Assembly (NCBI RefSeq): GCF_008807015.1
Contig: NZ_CP031700.1
Coordinates: 806,001 to 870,000 of the forward strand
DNA length: 64,000 nucleotides
Source of the DNA: Neisseria zalophi
Lineage (GTDB): Bacteria > Pseudomonadota > Gammaproteobacteria > Burkholderiales > Neisseriaceae
Direction of reading: 5' to 3'
The notes beneath the pieces were generated by a model that was not told the origin of the DNA, ran no database searches, and saw only the letters and a list, made by a program, of their open reading frames with translations. Shown one piece after another: positions 12,792 to 64,000 of this stretch (its first letter is position 1; every line of letters begins with the position of its first letter). Made by a program: the position numbers and the translations under genes.

Positions 12792-12976
12792 GTTTTATTT
12801 TCGTAACAAGGGTATAATAATAGCTTGATATTTTTTCAGATGACTTATTCGGATTGTGTTCGAAAAACAGCATTTAAAGCCAAAGGCCGTCTGAAAAGCT
12901 CTTTAACAACATTGGAAACAGCGTAAACACTGTGTTTTTACGTTAAGACTTATTGTACCTGATTAGAAAGAATGCC

Positions 12977-13765
12977 ATGAACCCGATTTTAAATACTGCT
13001 TTTAAAGCTGCCCGTAAAGCAGGCGATATGATGATTCGCGCCGCCAATAATCTGAATGCGGTAAAAACCGACAGCAAAGCGTTTAATGATTTTGTTTCCG
13101 ATGTTGATCGTACGGCAGAAGCCATTTTGGTTGATGCATTGAAAGAGGCTTATCCGCATCATAGAATTCTGGCTGAAGAAAGCGGCGCTCATGGTAAAAC
13201 AACAGCGGAATACGAATGGATTATTGATCCGCTGGATGGTACAACCAACTATCTGCACGGTCATCCGCAATATGCGATTTCTATGGCGCTCCGTCATAAA
13301 GGTGTTTTGCAGGAAGCATTAGTTTACGCGCCTGAGCGTAATGATTTATACATGGCTTCTCGCGGGCAGGGCGCATTGTTGAATGACCGCCGTATCCGGG
13401 TTTCTAATCGTATTGAGTTAAACCGCTGTTTGATCGGCACGGGTTTTCCAGTGGTTGATCAGAGTATGATGGATACTTATCTGGCTATTTTAAAAGATTT
13501 TTTAGCAAAAACTGCAGGCGGTCGCCGTGAGGGTGCTGCTGCTTTGGATTTGTGTGCCGTGGCCTGTGGGCGCTTGGATGGCTTTTTTGAATTTAACCTT
13601 AAGCCGTGGGATATTGCGGCGGGTGCGTTGATGGTTCAGGAAGCAGGCGGCATTGTAACGGATATGCAGGGCAATGAGCATTGGCTGGAAAGCGGCGATA
13701 TTGTTGCAGGTAATCCGAAAGTGTTGGGTCAGATGTTGCAAATTATTGCACCGCATGTGAAATAA
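12977..13765 (+). CDS. suhB: Inositol-1-monophosphatase (SuhB)
   Basis: This 262-residue enzyme of the inositol monophosphatase family carries the metal-binding motifs EESGAHG (Glu), WIIDPLDGTTNYLHG (Asp-Pro-x-Asp-Gly-Thr) and KPWDIAAGALMVQEAGG (Trp-Asp-x-Ala-Ala-Gly). SuhB hydrolyses inositol 1-phosphate; in enteric bacteria it also joins the rRNA antitermination complex. Start chosen at ATG 12977 after an AGAAAG ribosome site; the in-frame TTG at 12953 has none. Its DUS-pair terminator has been split by the IS element downstream. Confidence 0.95.
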   Translation: MNPILNTAFKAARKAGDMMIRAANNLNAVKTDSKAFNDFVSDVDRTAEAILVDALKEAYPHHRILAEESGAHGKTTAEYEWIIDPLDGTTNYLHGHPQYAISMALRHKGVLQEALVYAPERNDLYMASRGQGALLNDRRIRVSNRIELNRCLIGTGFPVVDQSMMDTYLAILKDFLAKTAGGRREGAAALDLCAVACGRLDGFFEFNLKPWDIAAGALMVQEAGGIVTDMQGNEHWLESGDIVAGNPKVLGQMLQIIAPHVK

Positions 13766-44771: not shown

Positions 44772-46004
44772 TTAATGTTCTGAGGCAGCTTTATCAACAG
44801 AATTTGAGTGGTTGCCTTTAAAGTCGGAAGAATGGGTTTGCAGATATTTCAATACCAATTTGGCGGTATCGTCGTCCATGTTGGTAAAACCTACCATGCC
44901 TGCGAATAATCCCGGCCATTGGTTTGCATCATGCCCTGATTCAGCCGGCTGGCGATGGCATACGCTACAGCTTTGAGAATAGCTGGAACGTGCCACATCC
45001 CAAATAGCTTCCGGACTGGTAACCAAATTACCTTTTTCCACCCAACCGGTAACGGTGACATGTTGCCACTCTAATCCGGTCAACTCGTCGACTTTGCTTT
45101 CTAATACTTTGACTATATTGGTATCTTTTGCTACTTCTTTATTCAGAATAGCATTGGTAATATTTAAACCGAAATTACCATATAAAACTCGTGCAAAGCC
45201 TTTGTTTTTACGCCACATTGTTAACTCAACTTGAATAGTGTCACCTTTGTTTTGTAAGACTTTTACTGGAGTGGCCATTTCGATAGAACCGATTTTTTGG
45301 GTCATGGCTTCGTCTGCAAACAAGTCTTGTGGTACTACGCTATAGTAACTTTCGCCACTGCTAGGTTTGACACCGTGGGCAACGGATATCAAAGTATCAA
45401 ATGCAGGATTACGGGCGCCTTTCATATCGGGCAGTTGGTGTGCAATACCTTTGTGGCATTCAACACAACTAACATTATTTTGAGCAGCCTGACGCATAGC
45501 CATTTGTGAGGTAACACGCATTTTAGAGAAATCCATGCTGTTGTAATCATGGCAATTTCTACACTCTTTGGAATTGTTGGCTTTAAAACGCGCCCATTCG
45601 CGCTGTGCTAATACGATACGGTGCTCCAAGAATTTTTCACGTGTACCGATAGTGCCGATAATTTGGCCAAGCACTTCTCGAGAAGCTTGCATTTTTCTGG
45701 CAACTTTATCAGTAAAATTGTGTGGAACATGGCAATCAGGGCAGCGTGCACGCACACCTGTCCGGTTCTTCCAGTGAACAGTTTTTTGCAGTTCCGGTAG
45801 TAGGTTATCGTTCATGCTATGGCATGACAGGCAGAATTCTTCTTGGTTGGTTTGTTCCATGCCATAATTAAAACTTCCCCAAAATAGTGCGCCGGCGATA
45901 AAACCACCGGTAACTAAAATACCTAAGCCTATTTTGGTTGCTGGTTGAGTGAATAAGCGGTAAAGCCAAATAAAAAAGCTTTTTATCCATTTGAAGATTT
46001 TCAT
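44772..46004 (-). CDS. torC: Pentaheme c-type cytochrome TorC
   Basis: TorC (410 residues) takes electrons from menaquinol and passes them to TorA. It has an N-terminal membrane anchor (about 25-45), a NapC/NirT-type tetraheme domain with CXXCH at 58-62, 88-92, 148-152 and 180-184, and a C-terminal domain with a fifth haem site CSVCH (346-350). This is the layout of TorC rather than NapC. Each haem must be added in the periplasm, which fits the ccm genes in the same gene run. It starts 54 bp after torE. Confidence 0.96.
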   Translation of the reverse strand: MKIFKWIKSFFIWLYRLFTQPATKIGLGILVTGGFIAGALFWGSFNYGMEQTNQEEFCLSCHSMNDNLLPELQKTVHWKNRTGVRARCPDCHVPHNFTDKVARKMQASREVLGQIIGTIGTREKFLEHRIVLAQREWARFKANNSKECRNCHDYNSMDFSKMRVTSQMAMRQAAQNNVSCVECHKGIAHQLPDMKGARNPAFDTLISVAHGVKPSSGESYYSVVPQDLFADEAMTQKIGSIEMATPVKVLQNKGDTIQVELTMWRKNKGFARVLYGNFGLNITNAILNKEVAKDTNIVKVLESKVDELTGLEWQHVTVTGWVEKGNLVTSPEAIWDVARSSYSQSCSVCHRQPAESGHDANQWPGLFAGMVGFTNMDDDTAKLVLKYLQTHSSDFKGNHSNSVDKAASEH

Positions 46005-46058
46005 TGTTATCGTCTTTGTATGAGTGGTAGCTGATAGGGTAGTGTTATATTTGTTAAA

Positions 46059-46220
46059 TTACTTTGGTGGGCCCCACCACAATATTTGACCTATCCAAAC
46101 TAAAAAACCATAAGCACAAATCATAAAAAATGCAGCGACAGGTAATCCTACGAATGCAAGCAGTAAAAAACGCTTCCATTCATTTTTGGTACCTGTTGCC
46201 GGTGGGTTAATGTTGGACAT
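46059..46220 (-). CDS. torE: TorE/NapE-family small membrane protein
   Basis: This 53-codon gene is the first of the tor run. The protein has the NapE/TorE pattern: a short polar N terminus (SNINPPATGTKNEWKRF), one membrane helix (about 18-46, LLLAFVGLPVAAFFMICAYGF) and a C-terminal WIGQILWWGPPK. The family accompanies Nap and Tor systems; its role is unknown. A GGGAAAC ribosome site precedes ATG 46220. It directly follows the FNR-type promoter. Confidence 0.9.
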   Translation of the reverse strand: MSNINPPATGTKNEWKRFLLLAFVGLPVAAFFMICAYGFLVWIGQILWWGPPK

Positions 46221-46270
46221 TTTGTTTCCCTACAGTTAGTTTAAAAAATAAACGGATGAATAATGGTGGC

Positions 46271-46313
46271 TACTATAACAAGATAGGCTGTTATATGGAT
46301 TGATGTGAATCAA
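46271..46313 (-). promoter_or_regulatory. FNR-dependent promoter of the torECAD-ccm genes
   Basis: The palindrome TTGATGTGAATCAA (46300-46313) is a perfect FNR consensus (TTGAT-N4-ATCAA). On the minus strand TATAGT (46276-46271), preceded by TG, is a good extended -10. The distance between the centres (33 bp) puts FNR near -41.5 to -42.5, the class II activator position, with the start of transcription about 40 bp before the torE ATG. No TorR-type boxes and no torS/torR/torT genes were seen. Confidence 0.82.
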
Positions 46314-46620
46314 TGTAAATTTATTTATTGACTAAGATTTTTATTTTAAAAAAATTAAAAATATGATAGATATAACTGTTTTTTATATCTTCTATGAAAT
46401 TTTTTGATAAAAAGGAAACGTGCAATTATAGCTTATATTTTATGAAATAAGTAAATTAAAATAGGTTATTTCAAAGCTTTTATTTATGCTTATCAAGTAT
46501 TGTTTTAAGTGGATGTGATAATTAAATGAAACCAAGCCTGAATTGCAGTAATTATATTTTGTCTTGGCTTTGCATTCGAGTGTAATAACAGGTTATATTA
46601 CAAAGATGTCGATTTGATCT

Positions 46621-46653
46621 ATGTTAAAAAATAACCAGTTTATTTTTTAACAT
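46621..46653. repeat. Perfect 13-bp inverted repeat
   Basis: ATGTTAAAAAATA (46621-46633) and its exact complement (46641-46653) flank a 7-nt loop. It lies about 340 bp upstream of gltB. It could be a weak terminator or a binding site. A second short pair, TGTAATA/TATTACA, is 20 bp to the left. Confidence 0.55.
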
Positions 46654-46770
46654 TAGAAAGTAAACGAATGGGTATAAAATTGTATTTATAAAAATAAATA
46701 AATAAAATCAATATATTATATAAATATTTTTTTGTAAAAGAAATATTTTTGCATACTAAAAACTTAGATG

Positions 46771-46824
46771 TTTAAACAAAATTGTCAACAATTATATTGC
46801 GAATTGTTGACAATTTTGTTTAAA
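46771..46824. promoter_or_regulatory. 23-bp perfect inverted repeat with two GntR-like operators, upstream of gltB
   Basis: Arms 46771-46793 and 46802-46824 are exact complements with an 8-bp spacer. Each arm contains AATTGTCAACAATT (or its complement AATTGTTGACAATT), which is itself a near-palindrome of the TTGT-NN-ACAA type bound by FCD GntR regulators. The arrangement suggests paired operators. It lies about 165-220 bp before gltB, and TTGACA inside it could also be a -35 box. Confidence 0.6.
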
Positions 46825-46990
46825 TAGAAGTAAAAGTTATTGTACGGCTAACGATTGAGTATATTAAACGAGTTACAGATCTGATATTTTCAAGTAATTT
46901 GTCACAATTATTATTTATCCCCATTCTATACCGTCATTTATCTAAAATTATTATCTAATTATTACAATTACATTCAGTAGGAACACTAAT

Positions 46991-49900
46991 ATGAATATGC
47001 TCTATGACCGTTCATTAGAAAAAGAAAATTGCGGCTTCGGTCTGATTGCCAATATTGATGGCATTCAAAGCCATAAAGTTGTCCGGAATGCCATTTTGGG
47101 GTTGTCGCGTATGCAACACCGTGGCGCAATTCTTTCCGATGGTAAAACCGGTGATGGTTGCGGCGTTTCTTTGCAAATGCCGGAATCATTTTTTCGCACT
47201 GTGGCAGAAGAGACAGGGATTTCATTGGCGCAAAAATTTGCCGTAGGGCAGATTTTCTTGCCGAAAGACAATGAAAAAGCACAAGAGTATATTGATATTA
47301 TCAATGAAGAGCTGACTCGTGAAACTTTAAGTATAGCAGCATGGCGTGATGTGCCGACTAATCCTTCGGTATTGGGTTCGATTGCGTTGGCGGATATGCC
47401 TCAGATTAAGCAGGTGTTGGTAAATGCGCCGAGCGGTTGGCGTACTCAGGATTTACAACGCCGTTTATTTGTAACGCGTCGCCGTATTGAAAAACGTATT
47501 GACCATCCGGATTTTTATATCTGTAGTTTATCTAATCAAACCATTGTTTATAAAGGTTTGTGTATGCCGAAAGATTTGCCTAAGTTTTATTTGGACTTGG
47601 GCGACTTGCGTATGCAATCGGCTATCTGTCTTTTTCACCAACGCTTTTCTACGAATACTCAGCCACGCTGGAAACTGGCCCAGCCTTTCCGCTATTTGGC
47701 GCATAACGGTGAAATCAATACGATTTCCGGTAACCGTGCTTGGGCGCGTGCCCGTGCTTACAAATATCATACTCCGCTGATTCCTGATTTACAGACGGCT
47801 GCACCGTTTGTGAATGAAAGCGGTTCGGATTCCAGCTCGTTGGATAATATGTTGGAAGTCTTTGTAAGCGGCGGTATGGATTTATTCCGTGCCATGCGTC
47901 TGTTGGTGCCGCCTGCATGGCAGCAAAATCCGGATATGGATGATGATTTGCGTGCATTCTATGACTTTAACTCCATGCATATGGAGCCTTGGGACGGCCC
48001 GGCCGGTATCGTGCTTTCAGACGGCCGTTATGCTGCCTGTAACTTAGACCGTAATGGTTTGCGTCCTGCGCGTTATGTCATTACTCAAGATCGTTTGATT
48101 ACAATTGCTTCGGAAGTCGGTATTTGGGATTACGCACCCGATGAGGTTGTGGAGAAAGGCCGTGTCGGTCCGGGTCAGTTATTGGTGATCGATACCAAAA
48201 ACGGCAAGTTATTACATTCTGACGAAATTAATAATGAATTACGTGCCCGCCATCCGTATCGTACATGGTTAGAGAAAAACGTTAAACGTTTGATTCCTTT
48301 TGAGCAGTTGCCGGATAACGAAGTCGGTGAAGCCTCTATGACTGCGGATATGTTAACTGTCTATCAGAAGCAGTTTCTCTATGATCGTGAGGAGTTGGAA
48401 AATATTGTGCGCGTATTGGGCGAAGACGGTCAAGAAGCGGTTGGCTCAATGGGGGATGATACATCTTTTGCCGTCTTGTCTGAGCGTTCTAGGCTGACTT
48501 TTGATTATTTCCGCCAGTATTTTGCACAGGTTACCAACCCGCCGATTGATCCTTTGCGGGAGGCGCATGTGATGAGCCTTGCGACCAGTATCGGTAGGGA
48601 AATGAGTGTGTTTTTTGAAGCGGAAGGCATGTCACATCGTGTGAATTTCAAATCTCCGATATTGCTTTATTCGGATATGCAGCAAATGCTGTCTCTGCCC
48701 CAAGAGTATTATAAACATACTGTATTAGATGCTACCTATGCACCTGAAGCGGATTTGAAAGATGCCATCGAAGCATTGTGCGATCAGGCCGAACAGGCTG
48801 CGCGTGAAGGTACGGTATTGTTGGTGGTTTCCGATAGAAATATCGCCAAAGACCGCCAGCCGATACCGTCTGCGCTTGCAGTAGGCGCAATACAGAACCG
48901 GTTGGTTAACGCTAATTTGCGTTGTGATGCCAATATTATCGTAGAAACCGCTGAAACACGGAACCCGCATCATTTTGCCGTATTGATCGGGTTGGGTGCG
49001 ACGGCCGTTTATCCTTATTTGGCTTATGAAAGCTTGGCGCACATGGTCAATACCGGTGTGATTACCAAGCCTTTGCGGGTCGTTATGTCTAATTTCCGTA
49101 ACGGCATCAATAAAGGCCTGTATAAAATCATGTCGAAAATGGGTATTTCCTGCGTATCGTCTTATCGCTGTGCGCGTCTGTTTGAAGTGGTCGGCATGAA
49201 CAGCGAAATTGTGGATATGTGTTTCCCCGGCATTACCAGCCGTGTGGAAGGTGCTTCGTTTACCGATTTGCATGAGCAAATTTCTGCTACCCGCAAACGG
49301 GCATGGCGCCGTAGCCAAGATGTTGATGCGGGCGGCTTGCTTAAATTCAAACCGCAGGGCGAATATCATGCTTACAATCCTGATGTGGTGAACACCTTAC
49401 AGGCAGCGGTGAATAGTGGGGATTATGGTAAATACCGCCTTTACCGCGATGCTGTGAATAATCGTCCGGTAACCACCATTCGCGATATGTTGCGGTTAAA
49501 AACCGAAACTGCTACACCGATTTCGATTGATCAGGTTGAGCCGTCTGAAAATCTGTATAAGCGTTTTGACAGTGCCGCTATGTCTATCGGTGCATTAAGC
49601 CCTGAAGCGCATGAGTCTTTGGCCATGGCGATGAACCGTTTGGGCGGCTATTCCAACTCTGGTGAGGGTGGGGAAGATCCTAAACGTTACGGCACCGATA
49701 AAGTATCGCGTATCAAACAGGTTGCGTCCGGCCGTTTTGGTGTCACTCCGGCTTATCTGATGAGTGCCGATGTGATTCAGATTAAAGTGGCACAAGGGGC
49801 AAAACCGGGTGAGGGCGGTCAGCTGCCCGGTGATAAAGTAACCCCGTATATTGCGCAATTGCGCTATGCGGTGCCGGGTTCTACCTTGATTTCACCGCCG

Positions 49901-54557: not shown

Positions 54558-54590
54558 CACCCCGAATATTAATGGTTCGGGGTGTTTTTT
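54558..54590 (+). terminator. glnA terminator
   Basis: CACCCCGAA (54558-54566) and TTCGGGGTG (54576-54584) form a GC-rich stem with a 9-nt loop and six T directly after. It lies 58 bp past the glnA stop and contains no uptake sequence. Confidence 0.92.
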
Positions 54591-54626
54591 ATTGAGAATC
54601 GTGCCGATAGTAGACAATAGCAAATG

Positions 54627-54664
54627 AAAAAGCAGGCATAGCTCACTGCTATGCCTGCTTTTTT
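54627..54664. terminator. Bidirectional terminator next to the tRNA 3' end
   Basis: AAAAAGCAGGCATAGC (54627-54642) and its perfect complement (54648-54663) enclose the loop TCACT, with T-runs on both sides. It lies 7 bp beyond the CCA end of the tRNA fragment on the minus strand, so it was the tRNA gene's own terminator and marks the chromosomal side of the junction. Confidence 0.88.
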
Positions 54665-54670
54665 GAATTT

Positions 54671-54719
54671 TGGTGGGTCCGGTGGGGATCGAACCCACGA
54701 CCAAGGGATTATGAGTCTT
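54671..54719 (-). tRNA. 3' half of a tRNA gene with CAU anticodon (attachment site remnant)
   Basis: Read on the minus strand this is the anticodon loop ACTCATAAT, the variable region, the T arm GTGGGTTCGATCCCCAC, the acceptor strand CGGACCCA and an encoded CCA. The 5' half (acceptor strand, D arm) is missing: upstream of it is unrelated AT-rich DNA. CAU marks tRNA-Met or tRNA-Ile2, and the body cannot separate them safely. This is the copy of the integration core left at one end when an element inserts in the tRNA 3' part; the intact gene should be at the far end. Confidence 0.88.
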
Positions 54720-54780
54720 GGTATATAAAATATAACTAATTGTTTTTAAATATAAGTGAAGCCTGCAACTACAGTCATAT

Positions 54781-54821
54781 ACAGTTTATTTTAAATATAA
54801 ACTGTCACAAATTTGTCACAA
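54781..54821. repeat. Inverted repeat plus tandem TGTCACAA repeats near the element end
   Basis: ACAGTTTAT (54781-54789) and ATAAACTGT (54797-54805) form a perfect inverted repeat with a 7-nt loop. Overlapping it, TGTCACAA occurs at 54803-54810 and again at 54814-54821, exactly 11 bp apart. The set lies 65 to 150 bp inside the element and upstream of virB1. It could be a binding site for a recombination accessory protein or a virB regulator. Confidence 0.5.
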
Positions 54822-54902: not shown

Positions 54903-55508
54903 ATGAAAAAATATTTATATGTATTGCTTTTCGCTTCAACGGTAGCTAGTGCCGCTCCGTATTCCCAATATAAAGCACTTGTTGAAAAGCATGCTGCTGC
55001 ACAAGGGTTAGATGCAAACTTGGTGTGGGCCGTAATAGCCCGTGAAAGTGGAGGCAACCGTTATGCGCTATCAAAAAAAAATGCACGAGGATTAATGCAA
55101 GTTATACCACCCACAGCAGCAAGAATGGGCGTTAATCCAAAACATCTTTATAGCCCTGAACATAATATTATAGCTGGTACGCGCTACTTGAAATTTTTAA
55201 GTAACCGCTATAACGGAAATCTCGACTTGATACTTGCCGGCTATAACGCGGGTGAGGGGGCGGTTGATAAATACAAAGGAATACCTCCTTACCGTGAAAC
55301 ACAAAACTACGTCAGGTTGGTTCGTAAACGTTATGCACAGTTAAGTGGCAACTCTAATTACGCACCTTCTTCATCTGATGCAACGGCAATTCGTGCATCT
55401 TATCAAGTTAAACCTGTCGTTAAAAATAGGCTTGTGTCTGATGAACATAAAATGTCTGAAGTAACTACGAAAAAATTCGCTGAGTGGGATGTTTTTCAAG
55501 AATTTTAA
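54903..55508 (+). CDS. virB1: VirB1-type lytic transglycosylase
   Basis: This 201-residue protein has a signal peptide (about 1-18) and a soluble lytic transglycosylase domain (about 25-140). The catalytic Glu48 is in VIARESGGN, followed by ARGLMQVIPPTAAR, NIIAGTRYL and AGYNAGEGAVDKY, all standard SLT motifs. VirB1 opens peptidoglycan locally so the secretion channel can be built. TTAGGA precedes the ATG. Two terminator-like hairpins follow before virB2, so virB1 may be expressed at a different level. Confidence 0.93.
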   Translation: MKKYLYVLLFASTVASAAPYSQYKALVEKHAAAQGLDANLVWAVIARESGGNRYALSKKNARGLMQVIPPTAARMGVNPKHLYSPEHNIIAGTRYLKFLSNRYNGNLDLILAGYNAGEGAVDKYKGIPPYRETQNYVRLVRKRYAQLSGNSNYAPSSSDATAIRASYQVKPVVKNRLVSDEHKMSEVTTKKFAEWDVFQEF

Positions 55509-55593: not shown

Positions 55594-55938
55594 ATGACTA
55601 AATCAAATCAAGTATCAGTTTCTAAAGCATTGCCATCAAATAGTATAAATAAATTTTGGTATATGCTTCCTGTTTTGATGTTCGGCTTGTTGTTTGCTAT
55701 TGATGCACAAGCGGCAGGCGGTGGATTAAGTAAATTAACGGCCGAAGGTAAGGAGTGGGATAAGGCTATTTATGGCTTTATTGGTGTATGTGCCACCATC
55801 TTCTTGCTTTTTAAAGGTGTTCAGATTTGGGCAAACAAAGGTAGCTGGGGAGACTTCGGTGAGGCCTGCCTGAAGGTTATTGTTGTGGCGGCCGTTCCTA
55901 CTTTAGCAACCTATTTGTGGTCTTTGTATGGTTCGTAA
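55594..55938 (+). CDS. virB2: VirB2-type major pilin / TrbC family
   Basis: This 114-residue protein matches the VirB2/TrbC pilin. A long leader with a hydrophobic segment (about 20-40, FWYMLPVLMFGLLFAIDAQAA) ends at an AxA cleavage site, followed by a mature pilin with two membrane helices (about 58-76 and 94-110; YGFIGVCATIFLLFKGVQIW and VIVVAAVPTLATYLW). The pilin subunits form the T4SS pilus. AAGGAAA precedes the ATG. The next gene starts 12 bp downstream. Confidence 0.88.
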   Translation: MTKSNQVSVSKALPSNSINKFWYMLPVLMFGLLFAIDAQAAGGGLSKLTAEGKEWDKAIYGFIGVCATIFLLFKGVQIWANKGSWGDFGEACLKVIVVAAVPTLATYLWSLYGS

Positions 55939-55949
55939 GAGGTGGATAT

Positions 55950-56348
55950 ATGAGTAACGACATCATAGATGTGGATGATGAGTTACCAGCATACCGGGGT
56001 CTTGAGCGAACGGCGACTTTTGCCGGTATGCCAATGGTTCCGGTTGTAATGGTAACGGCCATTCCACTCGTTGTAGCGATGATTCTGCTACCTTTCTTCA
56101 AAGTGAAAGCATTTTTAGTTTTGCTTTTTTCTTTGCCCTGTTTGGCTTTTATTTACACGCAAACGCAGCAAGACGATCAGGCCTTGCGTATTATAGGCTT
56201 GTCCACGTTAAGTGCATTACGCCGCCGTAATTATCGACTGTTTGGGAAAACCAATACGATTTTAGGCAGCAAATACGGAAGACAGAGAAATGATTATCAA
56301 CGATTATTTGAACAAAGTGTTGAAAAAACAGAGAGGACAGGAAGATAG
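55950..56348 (+). CDS. virB3: VirB3-type inner-membrane protein
   Basis: From ATG 55950 (GAGGTGG ribosome site) the protein has 132 residues with two close membrane helices (about 27-48 and 52-70), then a cytoplasmic region. VirB3 works with VirB4 in the inner-membrane platform. The N-terminal YRGLERTATFAGMPMVPVV is typical. The longer frame from 55917 runs back into virB2 and is less likely. Its last 59 bp overlap the start of virB4. Confidence 0.88.
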   Translation: MSNDIIDVDDELPAYRGLERTATFAGMPMVPVVMVTAIPLVVAMILLPFFKVKAFLVLLFSLPCLAFIYTQTQQDDQALRIIGLSTLSALRRRNYRLFGKTNTILGSKYGRQRNDYQRLFEQSVEKTERTGR

Positions 56349-58710
56349 CCTACCGCGTTATAAACAGCACATTAGTAAAAACGTTGTTTTGATGGAAAAT
56401 AACCGGGTTGCTTTTACCATCCGCCTTGAAGGGACACACTTTGAAGGTGTGGATGATTCAAGTATTGTTGTTCAATATCTAAATTTGAATAAAACATTAG
56501 CAGCTTTAGGAAAAGATAAAAGCAGCCGCCTTGGCCTTTGGTTTACTCATCATCACAAAAAAATCGACTTCGGCCGCCATTATGATTTTCGCACTACTTT
56601 CACTCGCAATTTTGCGGATAAGTATATGGATAAATTTAAAAAAACGGATTATTTTGAAAATATCTACTACATAACGGCTATCCTTCGATATGAAGATATG
56701 GATGATGCGGTAGAAGAGGCTGAAGAGTTGATTGAAAAACTAATGGAGTACCTGCAAGGATACGATCCCTATGTACTGAAAGCTTACTACAACGAATCGG
56801 GAATATTGTTCTCAGAGTTTTATGAGTTTATCGGTATGTTATCCAACGGTACCTATGAACCTATTCCTATGGGAACAGCAAATGCTTATCGCACCATTCC
56901 TTCGGCAGACCTTCACTTTGGCTCAGAACTTTTGGAAATGCGCTGTTCAGACAAAACACGTTATGCTACTTTGTATGATTTGAAAGAGTTTGGTCAGACA
57001 AAAGCAAAAATCATGGTTAATACATTAGCCTTGCCATGTGAATTCATTTTTACTCAAAGCTTGACTTATATCCGTCCTGCCAAAATGATGAAGCAAATTG
57101 ATGACCAACTAAATAAGTTGGAATCAGTAGGAGATATGGCTGAAAGCCAGCACCTTGAGTTACTCGAAGCCAAAGGGCATTTGGCTGCCGGAGATTTAAT
57201 GTTTGGAGAATATCACGGTGCTTTAGTCGTTTTTGGGGATACACCCAAAAAAGCTTACTCAAACGGGCAAACCGTAGCCGCCCGCTTCTTAAGTTCAGGC
57301 GGTTTTCGTTTTATTCGGGCATCACTTTCGGCTGAATTTACTTTTTTCAGCCAATTTCCAGGAGCAAATACCAAACCTAGACCGTTTCCTAAAGCTACAA
57401 CCAATATTGCTGCTTCATTTCCCATGTTTAATTACGAACATGGAAAAAGCCGTGGCAATCCATTAGGCGACGGATCAGCGGTGATGCCTCTTAAAACTGC
57501 AGGTGATACGCTTTACGACTTCAATTTCCACTATACAGATCCAAATGAAGCGGTGACAAAGGGAGAGTATCCAGCCGGTCATACCCTATTAATGGGGAAA
57601 ACAGGTACAGGTAAAACAACTGCCCAAACTGCCTTATTAAGTTTTGCCGAACGTTTTGATCCATATATTTTTGCGATGGATAAAGATAAAGGCATGGAGA
57701 TCTTCATTCGTGCCATTGGAGGTACTTATTTTCCTATTGATGCGGGAATTCCGACTGGTCTTAATCCATTCCAATGGCCCGACTCACCCAAATTGCGTGA
57801 TTTCTTATACGATTTAGTCGGTTCGTGTGTTCGTCAGCAAAATAAGGAAAATACAGCAGAAGAGCAGAAACAGATTCAAATGGCGGTAGATACCGTTATG
57901 AATTTGGATTTTAAACACCGGCGTATGGGCGCGTTGTTACATTCTATAGCCCCTAGTACTGAAGACAACAGCTTGTTTACTCGACTCGAAGTTTGGTGCG
58001 GAAAGGGTCGTTTTGCGTGGTGCTTAGATAATCCTCAAAATCAGTTCAATCCTGATGAGTTTTACCGTGTAGGATTTGATTTGACGGATATTTTAAAACC
58101 TGATTATCGACCAACGGAACCTATTCTCGCTTGTATGTTTTACATGAAAAACATCATGCTAGAGCGAGTAGCAAAAAATCGCGGTATTTTGGCTACCGTA
58201 ATTGAAGAGTTCTGGTTACCAGCAAAATACCCGACCACACAAGAATTTATTGTTGATGGATTGAAAACGGATCGTAAATTAGGTGGTTTCCTGGTGCTTG
58301 TAACACAATCCCCAAAGGATACTATCAATTCGCCCATTTTTGATACTGTGGTGGAGCAAACAGTTACCAAAGTTCTTTTGCCTAATCCATCTGCCGAGTA
58401 TGAAGCTAATTACCAGCGTCTTGGATTAACAGAAAAAGAATTTTACGAACTAAAACGACTAGGTGAGAAATCTAGACAGTTTTTGGTTAAACAGAACCTT
58501 TGCAGTTCGATCGCTACACTTAACCTTTCGGGGATGAGTGATGAAATCGCGGTATTGTCAGGCAATGCGGCAAACGTTCATATCATGCACAAGGCAATTA
58601 AACTTTGCGCTAGTGAACATCCTGATGTATGGCTGCCAGTGTTTCATGAAATGAGGAAGGAGGCGAAAGCCGAAAAAGAGAAACAAGATATGCAGCATCA
58701 TGCTGTATAA
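56290..58710 (+). CDS. virB4: VirB4-type T4SS ATPase
   Basis: VirB4 (806 residues) is the largest ATPase of the secretion machine and drives pilus building and substrate transfer. The Walker A motif GKTGTGKT is at about 436-443, and Walker B falls near GILATVIEEFWLPAKYP. The CagE/TrbE/VirB N-terminal domain precedes it. The final motif LVTQSPKDTINSPIFDTV is standard. GGAAG lies before ATG 56290, and the overlap with virB3 suggests coupling. The length is normal. Confidence 0.95.
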   Translation: MIINDYLNKVLKKQRGQEDSLPRYKQHISKNVVLMENNRVAFTIRLEGTHFEGVDDSSIVVQYLNLNKTLAALGKDKSSRLGLWFTHHHKKIDFGRHYDFRTTFTRNFADKYMDKFKKTDYFENIYYITAILRYEDMDDAVEEAEELIEKLMEYLQGYDPYVLKAYYNESGILFSEFYEFIGMLSNGTYEPIPMGTANAYRTIPSADLHFGSELLEMRCSDKTRYATLYDLKEFGQTKAKIMVNTLALPCEFIFTQSLTYIRPAKMMKQIDDQLNKLESVGDMAESQHLELLEAKGHLAAGDLMFGEYHGALVVFGDTPKKAYSNGQTVAARFLSSGGFRFIRASLSAEFTFFSQFPGANTKPRPFPKATTNIAASFPMFNYEHGKSRGNPLGDGSAVMPLKTAGDTLYDFNFHYTDPNEAVTKGEYPAGHTLLMGKTGTGKTTAQTALLSFAERFDPYIFAMDKDKGMEIFIRAIGGTYFPIDAGIPTGLNPFQWPDSPKLRDFLYDLVGSCVRQQNKENTAEEQKQIQMAVDTVMNLDFKHRRMGALLHSIAPSTEDNSLFTRLEVWCGKGRFAWCLDNPQNQFNPDEFYRVGFDLTDILKPDYRPTEPILACMFYMKNIMLERVAKNRGILATVIEEFWLPAKYPTTQEFIVDGLKTDRKLGGFLVLVTQSPKDTINSPIFDTVVEQTVTKVLLPNPSAEYEANYQRLGLTEKEFYELKRLGEKSRQFLVKQNLCSSIATLNLSGMSDEIAVLSGNAANVHIMHKAIKLCASEHPDVWLPVFHEMRKEAKAEKEKQDMQHHAV

Positions 58711-58797: not shown

Positions 58798-59463
58798 ATG
58801 ACCTTACGCAATTTAAAAATAAAAGCTATTGCAGTTTTGGTATCTACAGGATTAATGACTGTTTCGATGCCTATGTCCATTGCCGGTGGTATCCCTGTAT
58901 TTGATGGTGCGGCAGTTGCCCAAGCCATTCAGCAAGGAGTGCAAATGGCTGAGCAAATACAAAACCAGATCAAACAACTACAAGAGCTTAAAAACCAAGT
59001 TAAAGCTTTGACTGGTAGTCGTAATTTAGGGGAGTTTGCAAAAAATACTGCCCTTGACCATGTGCCTGATGAGTGGAAAGCCGTTTACGGCGACATTAAA
59101 AATTTAGATACATCAACAATTATAGGTAAAGATCGCTATAAGCAAAGCAATGCCACTGACGCTTTAATCAACAGTTATAAACAGGCTTCAAAAGCAGTTT
59201 TTGATACTCAAAAACGTATTGATGTGATTCAAAAGTTGGCCCAACAAATCAATCTGACACAAGATGCCAAAGCAGCAGCTGATTTACAGAATCGTATTTC
59301 GATTGAGCAGTCAAGAATTGCAACAAATCAAGTCATGTTGGACATGACTATGAAGATGGCCGAGCAGCAAGAAAAAATCCAAACGGCTCAGCAACAAAAT
59401 ATAATTGCCTGTCAAATCAAAGCTAAAGGCCGTTCTGCTCAGAAAGCATGTGGTTCTATTTAA
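58798..59463 (+). CDS. virB5: VirB5-type minor pilin
   Basis: This 221-residue exported protein has a signal peptide (about 5-29, cleaved near SIAGG-IPVFD) and a long helical, Gln-rich body (QGVQMAEQIQNQIKQLQELK and following). Two C-terminal Cys (IIACQIKAKG and QKACGSI) may form a disulfide. This is the usual look of VirB5/TraC proteins that sit at the pilus tip. AGGAGAA precedes the ATG. It is separated from virB6 by another terminator-like hairpin. Confidence 0.87.
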   Translation: MTLRNLKIKAIAVLVSTGLMTVSMPMSIAGGIPVFDGAAVAQAIQQGVQMAEQIQNQIKQLQELKNQVKALTGSRNLGEFAKNTALDHVPDEWKAVYGDIKNLDTSTIIGKDRYKQSNATDALINSYKQASKAVFDTQKRIDVIQKLAQQINLTQDAKAAADLQNRISIEQSRIATNQVMLDMTMKMAEQQEKIQTAQQQNIIACQIKAKGRSAQKACGSI

Positions 59464-59524: not shown

Positions 59525-60496
59525 ATGTCTGACGCATCTGGAAAATCAACATTTTTTGTTGATATGACACAATTTGTTACCGTGAACATGGGCACCAGTT
59601 TGTTTGAATCTGCTGGAAATTTTATTTCAAGTATAGCACCTGTTTTTTCAACGATGTTTGGTTTGTACCTTTTGATGGTGATGTTTTCATATTGGCAGGG
59701 AGGTGGTGTTGATGAAATGTTCGTTGACTTTGTAAAGCGAATGATTGTATGTTGTTTTTTAGTCATTTTAGCCTTCAATGCTACTCATTACCACGAACTT
59801 GCTAATCTTATTTATGTCTTACCTGATGATTTGGCAAAAGCATTCGGAAGTGTGGAGTACTCTGGTGGTGCATTAGATAAAATTGTGGATGATGTAAATA
59901 CAGTCACAGACGAACTTGCTTTTCAAAAGAGCAGGCTTAATATTTTAGATGTCGGCACAAGGTTCGATTACACTCTTGTTATTTACAGCATTGAAATTTT
60001 TATGGGAATTCTTCTAACTGTTGGATTTGCCTTCTATTTGCTATCAAAAATTTCTCTTGCAATGGTTCTTATGATAGGTCCGTTGTTTATCGGTTTCGGT
60101 TTATTTCCTGCTACTCGCCAATACAGCATGAACTGGGTTGGACAGTGTTTAAATTATCTATTTACTATTGTCTTATTTTCGGTGCTTGGCTCAATGATGT
60201 TAACTTTTATTAAAGATTATGTTGATATAATGGGAGCAGATAATATTGCTGCAGCATCATCGTTAGCTATGTTATTAGTTTTAATAACTATTCTTTTTAT
60301 TATTGTTTGCTTCTTTATACCTCAAATAGCATCTGCGCTGACAGGTGGGGGAGCTATACAAGGCTCTATGCGAACAATTTACAATGTAACGCGTAAAGGA
60401 TTGGCTAAGATTGATCACGGTACAAGAAAATCTGGAGTCGCTGCGAAGAATGTATGGAATAAAAATCGTAGTGGAGGAAGTATAAAAAAATCCTAA
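59525..60496 (+). CDS. virB6: VirB6/TrbL-type inner-membrane protein
   Basis: VirB6 (323 residues) is the polytopic inner-membrane component that helps form the substrate path. About six membrane helices are visible (roughly 40-62, 76-92, 152-175, 178-198, 205-228 and 242-268). The central ISLAMVLMIGPLFIGFGLFPATR is a family mark. The C-terminal tail is hydrophilic and basic (from about 285; RKGLAKIDHGTRK). The ribosome site is AGGA. The call rests on topology, the motif and the gene order. Confidence 0.88.
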   Translation: MSDASGKSTFFVDMTQFVTVNMGTSLFESAGNFISSIAPVFSTMFGLYLLMVMFSYWQGGGVDEMFVDFVKRMIVCCFLVILAFNATHYHELANLIYVLPDDLAKAFGSVEYSGGALDKIVDDVNTVTDELAFQKSRLNILDVGTRFDYTLVIYSIEIFMGILLTVGFAFYLLSKISLAMVLMIGPLFIGFGLFPATRQYSMNWVGQCLNYLFTIVLFSVLGSMMLTFIKDYVDIMGADNIAAASSLAMLLVLITILFIIVCFFIPQIASALTGGGAIQGSMRTIYNVTRKGLAKIDHGTRKSGVAAKNVWNKNRSGGSIKKS

Positions 60497-60517: not shown

Positions 60518-60952
60518 ATGGATCATAACGATATAAGGAAAGGTGTCTTACAGGCTCAAGTTGTAGACCGTAATTCAGGTTTTTTGTTATTTGAAATTTT
60601 TGTTGTACCTCCTACTCTTGCTTATTTTGTTGCAACTAGTAAATTTGTTTCAGAGTACGTCGGTCAAGATTCATTAGTATTTATATTTACAGGATTTTTT
60701 CTATTTTTCTTTTTTGTTTATGGGGTATTTTTCAACACAAAATTCAGAAGATATATTGCATTATTCTTCAGTTTCCTATGGGTGTATAGCGCATGGAAAT
60801 TTGTCGGTCCTGATAAACCTTTTTCTGACTATCAAATAACGGACTACTTCATAGATGTTTTTTTTAGAAGTATTCCATGTGTAATTATATTTTTAATTAC
60901 TCTTTTCTTACATTGGCATGATTTTATATTTTTAGATGATATGCAAAATTAA
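60518..60952 (+). CDS. Unknown polytopic membrane protein between virB6 and virB7
   Basis: This 144-residue protein has about four membrane helices (roughly 22-42, 50-70, 75-95 and 115-133), with a short polar N terminus (MDHNDIRKGVLQAQVVDRN). It has an ideal ribosome site, AAGGAGGTG. It lies 21 bp after virB6 and 20 bp before a lipoprotein gene. I do not recognise the family. In related operons this place can hold an entry-exclusion gene, but nothing in the sequence proves that here. Strongly AT-rich. Confidence 0.7.
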   Translation: MDHNDIRKGVLQAQVVDRNSGFLLFEIFVVPPTLAYFVATSKFVSEYVGQDSLVFIFTGFFLFFFFVYGVFFNTKFRRYIALFFSFLWVYSAWKFVGPDKPFSDYQITDYFIDVFFRSIPCVIIFLITLFLHWHDFIFLDDMQN

Positions 60953-60972: not shown

Positions 60973-61434
60973 ATGAACAATAAGAAGTTGATAGTATCTC
61001 TTCTGTTTTCTATTTCAATTTGTTTGACCGGTTGTGCCGCTCTAAATGATGGTTTAGCGCAGATAAATAGCACTCTAGGAGAAATTAATGGGGGCTTATC
61101 TGGGTCATCAAGTAAGCCCATTTCTGATAAACAAACTGCCGTTTATGCTTTAAAAAATATGCAAATATCAGAAACATCCGCTTTTAATGGAACCGGTTAT
61201 GGTAAAGGGCTTCGCCTAACCGGTGAGGCATACAACAAAACAAGTAAACTGGTAAGATTGAATCTTTCTATCCCCATCTACGATAAAGGTGGATTCCGTG
61301 AAGGCTCTTTAGGTGGTGAGATTACTCTTTCACCAAAAGAGAAACAACGGTTTGAATTCGATACCCCATCAGCTATACCTGAAGGCGGAAAACTGGATTT
61401 GAATAAATTCAAAGTTTCCCAAGAAAAATTTTGA
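60973..61434 (+). CDS. Lipoprotein with a beta-rich C-terminal domain, unknown role
   Basis: This 153-residue protein has a lipoprotein signal peptide with lipobox LTGC (Cys21). A Ser/Gly-rich linker (about 38-50) leads to a domain with alternating strands (GLRLTGEAYNKTSKLVRLNLSIP, IYDKGGFREGSLGGEITLSP) that resembles FxLYD-type beta sandwiches. It is preceded by AGGAGTAG. A second, much shorter lipoprotein (virB7) follows after a terminator-like hairpin. The protein could be an exclusion lipoprotein or an accessory of the outer-membrane complex. Not identified. Confidence 0.7.
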   Translation: MNNKKLIVSLLFSISICLTGCAALNDGLAQINSTLGEINGGLSGSSSKPISDKQTAVYALKNMQISETSAFNGTGYGKGLRLTGEAYNKTSKLVRLNLSIPIYDKGGFREGSLGGEITLSPKEKQRFEFDTPSAIPEGGKLDLNKFKVSQEKF

Positions 61435-61450
61435 TATTTATAAAACGCTG

Positions 61451-61477
61451 AAACGCTTCCAAATGGAAGCGTTTTTT
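61451..61477 (+). terminator. Terminator-like hairpin before virB7
   Basis: AAACGCTTCC-AAAT-GGAAGCGTTT followed by T-rich sequence. TTGGAG of virB7 follows 3 bp later. Confidence 0.85.
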
Positions 61478-61495
61478 CTTTTGGAGATTTACATA

Positions 61496-61615
61496 ATGAA
61501 GAAACTGACATTAATACTAATAGCAATGATGATGGCCACTGCTTGCTCACATAATCCAAAGAAGCCTAGCGGTCAGCCTTTTCCGATTAACCCCACTTAT
61601 CAGGTAGGAAATTAA
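61496..61615 (+). CDS. virB7: VirB7-type small lipoprotein
   Basis: This 39-codon gene is too short for most gene callers. It has a signal peptide and lipobox (MMMATAC, Cys17) and a short Pro-rich mature part ending PINPTYQVGN. VirB7 anchors VirB9 to the outer membrane in the T4SS core. The size, lipobox and place before virB8-virB9-virB10 support the call. GGAG lies 10 bp before the ATG, and virB8 starts 1 bp after the stop. Confidence 0.85.
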   Translation: MKKLTLILIAMMMATACSHNPKKPSGQPFPINPTYQVGN

Positions 61616-61616
61616 A

Positions 61617-62354
61617 ATGGGATTATTCCGCAAAAAAGATAAAGTTAGAAAAACTAATACAAAAGAGCAAAAGCCGAAAACACCTTATAAAGAAAGTATC
61701 GACTTTATTAAGGCAGCCAAAGAGTTTGAAAAATCAGAAAACGACAACATCCGTAAACGTGAAAAAATAGCATGGGTTGTCGCCGGTGCAGCTGGATTAA
61801 TTACAGTAGCATCTGTCTTTGCTGTAGCAGCTATGCAGCCGCTTGTACGAGTTGAACCTTACATTATGCTAGTGGATATGAACACTGGTAAAACCAATGT
61901 GATTACTACATTAGATCATAAAACTTTATCCAATAATAAAGAGTTAAATAAACACTTTTTAGGTAGTTATGTGAAGAATCGTGAAGGGTATGACTGGTAT
62001 ACGATTCAGACCACTTACGATACTGTAATTGCGATGAGTGGACCACAAGAGCAAGCTCAATTTACGAAGCCTTTCCAAGATGAAGTAGGGCCTGATAAAG
62101 TTCTTGCTGATAAATATAGAGTAAAAGTAGATATTAATTCTATTTCATTTGTCGGCGAAACTGCACAGGTCCGCTTTACTAAGACAACATTACCCGTCAC
62201 TCCCTCATCGGGAGACGCCCCTGCAACACAACACTTAATCGCTACAATTGCGTATCACTATGCTAATCCACCGTTGAATGAAGAAGAACGGGAATATAAC
62301 CCAACAGGATTTATTGTTGATTCTTATCAAGTGGAAGTGGAGAACTCACAATGA
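61617..62354 (+). CDS. virB8: VirB8-type assembly protein
   Basis: VirB8 (245 residues) is a bitopic inner-membrane protein. One membrane helix is at about 50-72 (WVVAGAAGLITVASVFAVAAM) after a charged cytoplasmic tail. The periplasmic NTF2-like domain carries YDWYTIQTTYDTVIAMSG and PTGFIVDSYQVE. It is the scaffold for complex assembly. Its stop overlaps the virB9 start as ATGA. Confidence 0.93.
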   Translation: MGLFRKKDKVRKTNTKEQKPKTPYKESIDFIKAAKEFEKSENDNIRKREKIAWVVAGAAGLITVASVFAVAAMQPLVRVEPYIMLVDMNTGKTNVITTLDHKTLSNNKELNKHFLGSYVKNREGYDWYTIQTTYDTVIAMSGPQEQAQFTKPFQDEVGPDKVLADKYRVKVDINSISFVGETAQVRFTKTTLPVTPSSGDAPATQHLIATIAYHYANPPLNEEEREYNPTGFIVDSYQVEVENSQ

Positions 62355-63172
62355 TAAATAAAACTTTTTTAATTTCCGGTATTGTCGCCGGTTTTTTTTC
62401 GCTCTCCGTTCAGGCCGCAGCTATTCCTAAAGGTACGGTATATGACAAACGTATCCAGTATATAAATTACAACCCAGACAATGTGGTAGTTATTCGATCC
62501 AAAGTGGGCAGAGCTGTGTTGGTACAGTTGGCTAATGATGAGCGCCTAAGTGGCGATAGTAAAGGTTTGGCTGCTGGCAATACCGGTGCATGGGCCTTAA
62601 ACGTATCCGGAAACAATATTTTCTTTAAACCCAAAATTGCTTCTCCTCAAACAAACTTACTGATTACCACCAATAAACGAACTTACGCATTCGATTTACA
62701 GATGGCGGGTAAAAATCGGCCACCCACCTATATTCTGCGCTTCCGCTATCCGGATGAAGTAAGACAGCAGAGGGAAAAAGTAGAACGTAAACGTCGCGAA
62801 GCACGTACTCTTAATGATCTTCATCCTGAGAAAAGTTATGGTTTTCGTAACTTTGATTATTGGGGATTTGGCTCTAAAGCCCTTTCACCATCTGAAATGT
62901 GGGATGACGGTCGATTTACTTACCTCAAGTTTGATGATGCTCGTGAAATGCCTACAGTGTTTAATGTGTCCGCTGATGGCACAGAGTCCACCATAAACAG
63001 CCATATCGAAAATGATACATTGGTAATTCACGGCACTTCTGCTTTATATCACTTGCGATTAGGTAAAAAGGTGCTGGGTGTAGAAAACCGAAGCTATGAC
63101 AGTAAGGGTAAATTTAACTATCGGGGAACAACTATTCCCGGAGCAGTCCGTATGAAAAAGGAGGGCAAGTAA
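62351..63172 (+). CDS. virB9: VirB9-type outer-membrane core protein
   Basis: VirB9 (273 residues) has a signal peptide (about 1-22), an N-terminal domain (KGTVYDKRIQYINYNPDNVV, VLVQLANDERL), a linker, and the C-terminal domain with FTYLKFDDAREMPTVFNV, which in relatives binds VirB7. VirB7, VirB9 and VirB10 form the core complex that spans the two membranes. The ATG overlaps virB8, and virB10 starts immediately after the stop. Confidence 0.94.
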   Translation: MINKTFLISGIVAGFFSLSVQAAAIPKGTVYDKRIQYINYNPDNVVVIRSKVGRAVLVQLANDERLSGDSKGLAAGNTGAWALNVSGNNIFFKPKIASPQTNLLITTNKRTYAFDLQMAGKNRPPTYILRFRYPDEVRQQREKVERKRREARTLNDLHPEKSYGFRNFDYWGFGSKALSPSEMWDDGRFTYLKFDDAREMPTVFNVSADGTESTINSHIENDTLVIHGTSALYHLRLGKKVLGVENRSYDSKGKFNYRGTTIPGAVRMKKEGK

Positions 63173-64000
63173 ATGAACTTGGATCCGAACAGTATTAATC
63201 AAAATAATGAAGATGGGACAAATGCAATAGAACCATCTTCTGAGACTAACAACGGCCACTTGAATGAAACTCCGAAAGATGGAGATTTTCGTGTGCAAGA
63301 TTTGAGCGGGCAGATTAAAACACCGGAGGCCGAACGAGGCATTCCGCGTGATTTAAGTGTCCGCAAAATTTCAACCATGAAAAAGGTTGTTATTTTAGTA
63401 TTAGGCCTGTTTTCCGTTGGGCTTATTTCTGCAGGTGTAATGCGTTATGGTGCGGGGTGGTTTAAAAAAGAACCTAAAACCGAACAGACGCAAATAGCGT
63501 CTACAAGTGGAACTCGCCATGATTTCAGTAAAAGCCAGAAAGATAGTCTTTCCTCAGCTGCCGATGTTGAAATTGTGGAAGAAGTTGCATCCGAACCAGA
63601 ATCTGACATTGTATCCGAACCGCAGCCAGATATTTCTTCACAAGCTACAACAGCTACTCCAACCGTAAGTGAACCACCACCAGATTTGCGCCTGATCAGC
63701 CCGTTGATGTTCGATGATGTAGATAGTGCGGTCACAGGGGGAGAAAGTGTTGCTAGCGCAGGAGGAGCTTCAGCTTATTTAGGTAGTTCCTCTGAAAGTG
63801 ATACAGACAATAGCAAACAACAAGGGTTGGCTGCCCGATTAAATGGATCGATATTTACTCCCGCCGTTGCTCAACAACGTGGCAATTTGGATTATCTTCT
63901 TGGGCGTAGCACTGGCATTCAATGCGGTTTGTTAACCCGTATTGTGACTACTTATCCGGGTATCACCAAATGCCAAGTACTTAATGATGTATATTCGGCC
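63173..64000 (+). CDS. virB10: VirB10-type core protein, 3' end cut by the window
   Basis: The first 276 codons are present. VirB10 is anchored in the inner membrane by one helix (about 66-86; KVVILVLGLFSVGLISAGVM). A Pro/Glu/Ser-rich linker follows, then the start of the periplasmic beta-barrel domain (GNLDYLLGRSTGIQCGLLTRI, PGITKCQVLNDVYSA), where two Cys occur at family positions. It transmits energy from the ATPases to the outer channel. The ATG directly follows the virB9 TAA. The frame is open to the end of the window. Confidence 0.93.
   Translation, partial: MNLDPNSINQNNEDGTNAIEPSSETNNGHLNETPKDGDFRVQDLSGQIKTPEAERGIPRDLSVRKISTMKKVVILVLGLFSVGLISAGVMRYGAGWFKKEPKTEQTQIASTSGTRHDFSKSQKDSLSSAADVEIVEEVASEPESDIVSEPQPDISSQATTATPTVSEPPPDLRLISPLMFDDVDSAVTGGESVASAGGASAYLGSSSESDTDNSKQQGLAARLNGSIFTPAVAQQRGNLDYLLGRSTGIQCGLLTRIVTTYPGITKCQVLNDVYSA

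Follow-up and report, generated by a model that had tools for sequence, protein, structure and literature searches.

The DNA analysed here (the window, 64,000 nucleotides) corresponds to positions 806001-870000 of the 2,423,693-bp, single-contig genome of Neisseria zalophi. The features of the locus are listed in Table 1. On the chromosomal side of the junction lies glnA, homologues of which were detected in 45 of the 46 genomes of our genus sample, and it is followed by its own terminator and by a distinct terminator of opposite orientation. ARAGORN detected no complete tRNA within the window. Instead, the minus strand of 54671-54717 reads as the 3' half of a CAU tRNA with CCA, in agreement with an earlier prediction made from the window's sequence alone, and covers 47 of the 76 nucleotides, from the anticodon stem to the CCA. 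The extent of the repeated segment had to be corrected, however: it had been placed at 54671-54719, but positions 54718-54719 mismatch, and the repeat is a 49-bp segment at 54669-54717. The hairpin with a T-run on the chromosomal side starts 7 nt past the final CCA base in the tRNA direction, and a comparable hairpin of varying sequence occupies the same spot beside most unoccupied copies of this tRNA gene (tRNA-Ile2, see below) in relatives, supporting the proposal that it is the tRNA gene's own terminator. The DNA on the other side is AT-rich, as also anticipated, with a G+C content of 40.5% for the element described below versus 46.1% and 47.9% for its two flanks. Elsewhere in the window, a 1-kb segment (46000-46999) upstream of a 1487-aa ORF at 46991 has a G+C content of 26%.

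Table 1. Features from glnA to the integrase gene. Positions are those of the window unless marked as genome positions; genes without positions are given in their order along the element.
Feature	Position	Strand	Basis or remark
glnA, chromosomal flank, 472 aa	53081..54499	+	ORF; named in the original prediction; conserved through the genus
glnA terminator, chromosomal side	~54558..54591	+	Sequence; hairpins like it follow glnA in several relatives
Rho-independent terminator of the original tRNA gene, chromosomal side	54627..54663	-	Inverted repeat, -26 kcal/mol
Left att core: 3' 47 nt of tRNA-Ile2 plus 2 nt past CCA	54669..54717	-	Repeat match
Subterminal motif GTGAAGCCTGC	54756..54766 (genome 860756)	+	Motif search
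Probable arm-type integrase site ACAAATTTGTCACA	54807..54820 (genome 860807)	+	Motif search
virB1, SLT transglycosylase	54903..55508	+	PF01464 2e-27
virB2, pilin (TrbC/VirB2)	55594..55938	+	PF04956 1.7e-5, slightly below curated cut-off; position
virB3	55951..56348	+	PF05101; ATG start picked by eye (listed ORF from GTG 55917)
virB4, ATPase	56290..58710	+	PF03135 6.5e-24
virB5	58798..59463	+	PF07996 7.9e-27
virB6 (TrbL)	59525..60496	+	PF04610 2.8e-34
Two small genes within the virB operon	60518-60952, 60973-61434	+	No Pfam match
Candidate virB7, small lipoprotein-like ORF	61463..61615	+	Presumed from lipobox-like start and position ahead of virB8
virB8	61617..62354	+	PF04335 4.9e-51
virB9	62351..63172	+	PF03524 1.3e-53
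virB10	63173..64000, past window edge (end, genome 870459)	+	PF03743 1.9e-47
virB11	genome 870512
SSB			Between virB11 and coupling protein
Coupling protein (T4CP)	genome 873345
UvrD-like helicase, ArdC-like antirestriction protein, MobC			After coupling protein
MobP1-like relaxase	genome 883668		NCBIfam MobP1 model 4.8e-26, under its curated cut-off
DNA methyltransferase, then AAA_13 protein			After relaxase
PrlF/YhaV toxin-antitoxin pair, nuclease-domain protein, UmuD/UmuC-like proteins			After AAA_13 gene
PemK- and ParE-like toxins, LexA-like S24 repressor, TrbM, ParA-like protein			Before HTH_17 ORF
HTH_17 excisionase-like ORF	genome ~905095-905424		Just upstream of integrase gene, overlapping it
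Tyrosine integrase	genome 905298-906317		PF00589 4e-35; ends ~35 bp from right core

The original prediction held that the intact CAU tRNA, an integrase and the other end of the element would lie beyond the 64 kb, and all three were found there. The right core lies within a complete minus-strand tRNA of 76 nt (genome 906353-906428), which is the sole intact copy of the core-bearing tRNA and has the tyrosine integrase gene beside it. The left core is identical to genome 906351-906399 over all 49 bp (0 mismatches) in the same orientation. Exactly two core copies are present in the whole genome (genome 860669-860717 and 906351-906399), offset by 45,682 bp, and the next-best tRNA match is tRNA-Lys with merely 77% identity over 57 bp. 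A perfect 49-bp match at a distance of 45.7 kb is far beyond what chance alone could produce.

We examined the identity of the tRNA. Its best annotated matches in Escherichia coli were tRNA-Ile (84.7% over 72 bases), and its loop and variable-arm sequence (GACTCATAATC.CTTGGTCG) resembles that of tRNA-Ile2, suggesting that the target is most likely the AUA-decoding tRNA-Ile2 rather than a Met tRNA. Elongator Met, the assignment made by ARAGORN, stems from the CAU anticodon alone and was rejected in view of the E. coli tRNA-Ile matches. A pattern search for CAU tRNAs in the genome returned just the initiator and the two core copies, and did not locate an elongator Met gene. In a pattern census, nearly every genome of the genus contained one tRNA-Ile2 core copy, suggesting that tRNA-Ile2 is a single-copy gene. 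The intact gene is followed by a gene that, from its sequence, we take to be ubiD.

Two short motifs were found inside the ends of the element. In 56 kb, the sole other copy of GTGAAGCCTGC is inverted and located just before the integrase gene (genome 905265-905275), and the only other copy of ACAAATTTGTCACA is ACAAATTTGACACA, near the right core (genome 906291-906304). GTGAAGCCTGC also occurs in the left ends of the related elements in genomes G016 (exact) and G030 (one difference), and the ends of the elements in G016, G030 and G013 contain both motifs, with slightly different copies in G030. Both are likely arm-type integrase sites, and ACAAATTTGNCACA and the core at the element ends are predicted to be bound by the integrase. 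When the flanks were joined in silico with a script, the tRNA gene was restored, and the joined element ends contained no tRNA; the rebuilt gene therefore carries the tRNA 3' half supplied by the element. Behind this gene, the right end of the element provides a hairpin with a T-run (-17.5 kcal/mol). In G030, the truncated copy diverges from the tRNA directly after TTATGAG, which fits an exchange at or to the left of that point, in the anticodon loop or the 3' part of the tRNA. In line with these alignments, the crossover would probably lie in the 7-bp anticodon loop.

The genes between the two cores include a virB operon, starting with virB1 next to the left core, and the further genes listed in Table 1. 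VirB4 is 45-53% identical to plasmid-borne VirB4 proteins, and the second small gene of the virB operon (60973-61434) has a lipoprotein-like start. The closest plasmid relaxase (51%) and VirB4 (52%) are encoded by NC_017965, a conjugative plasmid of Advenella kashmirensis, which differs from the element in being a plasmid record. The AAA_13 gene (L009:8418-10844) strongly matches the PADLOC candidate defence system PDC-S06 (1058 bits) and was not found in the compared stretches of six related integrative and conjugative elements (ICEs). A 504-bp inverted repeat, 97% complementary, brackets the AAA_13 and PrlF/YhaV cargo (genome 886714-887217 and 891829-892332; L009:7714-8217 and 12829-13332), and the region inside it could undergo inversion or could have been acquired as a unit. 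The chromosomal dialect of the DNA uptake sequence, AG-DUS, occurs 11 times in the 45.6-kb element and 34 times in 63 kb of flanks. Its density in the element is roughly half that of the flanks rather than zero, so DUS content alone would be a weak sign of foreign origin.

We investigated the occupancy of tRNA-Ile2 in the 46 genomes. The core was matched in 45 of them, and two copies were found solely in G000, G030 and G016; in each of these three, the Ile2-type integrase is intact and is accompanied by virB genes and a relaxase. No second core copy was detected in the genomes of the sample that lack the element, so the truncated tRNA did not occur apart from virB genes, an association on which the original prediction depended. 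G030 (Neisseria sicca C2010005502, NZ_POXG01000002.1) contains a co-linear 40.7-kb ICE in tRNA-Ile2, with virB1 beside a 47-bp truncated copy. Its integrase is 80% identical to that of the window's ICE, whereas the relaxases are 68-69% and VirB1-B10 mostly 34-52% identical, and it lacks the AAA_13 and YhaV cargo. The left flank of the G030 element (L079) contains a remnant of the 3' end of another integrase and a right-end motif beside the truncated copy, which points to tandem integrations at one tRNA. In G016, one contig carries the truncated copy together with the virB genes and the relaxase gene, and a second carries the integrase gene and the intact tRNA. Broken integrase-like sequences were found at tRNA-Ile2 with a single core in G001, G013, G033 and G042, and G039 has a single core, a full-length integrase at tRNA-Ile2 and a degraded relaxase remnant nearby. 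We interpret this pattern as the outcome of repeated invasion and decay at tRNA-Ile2.

The comparison of glnA downstream regions that had been proposed cannot reveal an empty site, because in none of the other genomes of the genus that we checked does glnA adjoin tRNA-Ile2. The two-flank arrangement glnA-tRNA-ubiD was likewise not found in these genomes, and it is the terminator and the core, not an empty-site alignment, that support the continuity of the left flank. The chromosomal region around tRNA-Ile2 is rearranged between species: G022 and G024 have the tRNA-ubiD arrangement without an element and with different genes on the left (presumably secA and yacG, from their sequences), and in G029 glnA and tRNA-Ile2, which share one orientation, are separated by 40 kb that contain no ICE.

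We conclude, with a probability of about 96%, that the truncated tRNA is one att end of a complete 45.7-kb ICE with an MPF-T (VirB) system and a MOB-P-type relaxase, inserted in tRNA-Ile2 (CAU), and the predicted link between the truncated tRNA and a VirB-bearing element is thereby upheld. The insertion is chromosomal and bounded by directly repeated, identical 49-bp cores, its own tyrosine integrase gene lies at one att site, and it encodes a relaxase, a coupling protein and a type IV secretion system with VirB4 and a candidate VirB7. As expected for the product of a tRNA-targeting integrase, a 3' end borne by the element completes the tRNA, and the truncated copy lies at the far end. The support comes from sequence: both cores, the gene content, the subterminal sites and the co-linear relatives at the same tRNA. 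In the proposed mechanism, the tyrosine integrase would have catalysed recombination between the circular form of the element and the tRNA gene, with the 7-bp anticodon loop as the probable crossover site. The 49-bp copy of the 3' half carried by the element would have become attached to the 5' half of the tRNA, giving a functional gene at the right end, with a new hairpin and T-run supplied by the element, and the old 3' half with its terminator would have been left at the far end beside virB1. The integrase and the HTH excisionase-like protein would reverse the reaction to form a circle, which could be transferred by the relaxase, coupling protein and VirB channel; we infer excision, circle formation and transfer from these genes and sites.

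Other origins of the junction were considered. A chromosomal duplication that left a paralogous or decayed tRNA fragment unrelated to the VirB genes is scarcely credible as the source of the truncated copy. The fact that no other genome of the genus has glnA beside tRNA-Ile2 would suit such an origin, but the perfect identity over 49 bp, the integrase at the other copy, the matching subterminal motifs, the same arrangement in G030 and G016 and the single core in element-free genomes all speak against it. Alternatively, the left junction might stem from a different integration event at tRNA-Ile2, with later recombination between elements or inversion of the chromosome producing the present ends. 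Repeated use of tRNA-Ile2, the right-end remnant beside the truncated copy in G030 and the variable gene order around this tRNA among species lend this some plausibility, but the left- and right-end sites fit a single element with the same order as in G030 and G016, and the DNA to the left of the core in the window showed no integrase remnant, making such a history improbable. A third explanation accepts the junction as genuine and supposes that the ICE is immobile and decaying, so that excision no longer occurs. Decay is common at tRNA-Ile2, given the broken integrases in several relatives, and this explanation is the least improbable of the three, but we still consider it unlikely, since the cores are identical and the reading frames of the integrase, the Pfam-matched VirB proteins, the coupling protein and the relaxase are uninterrupted over their full length.

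Judged by published features, the closest known systems to the complete ICE at tRNA-Ile2 are ICEriNK and ICENmu of Neisseriaceae. ICEriNK, which occurs in Neisseria gonorrhoeae, N. meningitidis, N. lactamica and Kingella, also has MPF-T virB genes, a MOB-P relaxase, a coupling protein, a terminal integrase beside an intact tRNA, a ~50-bp duplication of the tRNA 3' end at the other boundary, and toxin-antitoxin cargo between relaxase and integrase (PMC7371117). The window's ICE shares the MPF-T and MOB-P types, as assigned by its VirB Pfam set and a MobP1 match under the curated cut-off, but it occupies a CAU tRNA, tRNA-Ile2, and spans 45.7 kb, whereas ICEriNK occupies tRNA-Asn and spans ~30 kb in WHO F (PMC7371117). 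By description, the AAA_13 candidate defence gene, PrlF/YhaV, UmuDC and ArdC further set it apart. ICENmu of N. mucosa-like commensals is likewise MPF-T and MOB-P with a terminal integrase, but it inserts outside tRNA genes at a 21-bp DUS-containing motif, whereas the core here is tRNA sequence; circle formation has been shown for ICENmu (PMC7371117). ICE-like islands at tRNA genes of N. elongata, N. iguanae and N. zoodegmatis are mentioned in the same study without being analysed (PMC7371117, Fig. S2).

Integrases of the family represented in the window's ICE adjoin tRNA-Ile2, Lys, Asn, Leu, Thr, Phe, Ser and Arg genes. Integrase and relaxase trees were built for the 21 elements having both genes; in this set, the targets of G001 (DUS, no tRNA) and G023 (contig-cut tRNA-Asn) were assigned by reading the sequence, and integrase-relaxase pairing was assumed in G031 (opposite gene orientation) and G016 (two contigs). 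The integrase tree required 9 target changes, against a mean of 13.2 in 200 shuffles, none of which gave so low a count; the relaxase tree required 14, against a mean of 13.0, and 182 of 200 shuffles were at least as low. All three Ile2 integrases fall within a single clade (100/99), and no such grouping is seen for the relaxases of these elements. About 21 kb of backbone is 93-95% identical at the DNA level between G030 and G042a, yet the two elements occupy different tRNAs. Across the 21 elements, the tRNA target thus tracks integrase rather than relaxase phylogeny, which indicates that integration modules are swapped among similar conjugation backbones. Lys and Asn targets are mixed inside one integrase clade. 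Integrases 70-71% identical to that of the window's ICE (L015-L019) adjoin tRNA-Lys or tRNA-Asn, depending on the genome, which suggests that one integrase type may accept both. At L262 (G001), a related integrase belongs to an element with a relaxase 85% identical to that of the window's ICE and, as in ICENmu, has a DUS downstream and no tRNA nearby.

Taken on its own, the element is a clean, complete but ordinary ICE, and the pattern of module exchange adds to its interest. Integration-module exchange is known in ICEs of other genera, and the principle is therefore not new. The integration specificity of Streptococcus ICEs is reportedly the subject of one study (PMC4701971). Neisseriaceae quite probably harbour a single broad pool of VirB-type ICEs whose integration modules (integrase, excisionase and att) are freely exchanged among similar backbones, so that the same backbone turns up in the genes for tRNA-Ile2, Lys, Asn, Leu, Thr or Phe, or at a DUS-like site, and tRNA-Ile2 has been the target of repeated invasion. 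Since the comparison indicates that the identity of the integrase, not of the backbone, goes with the tRNA target, target choice is testable with closely matched integrase pairs. The exact att sites and probable arm sites are now available for excision tests. A complete, apparently intact conjugative element has thus been delimited in Neisseria, a genus in which ICEs are little described and in which gene exchange between commensals and pathogens matters.
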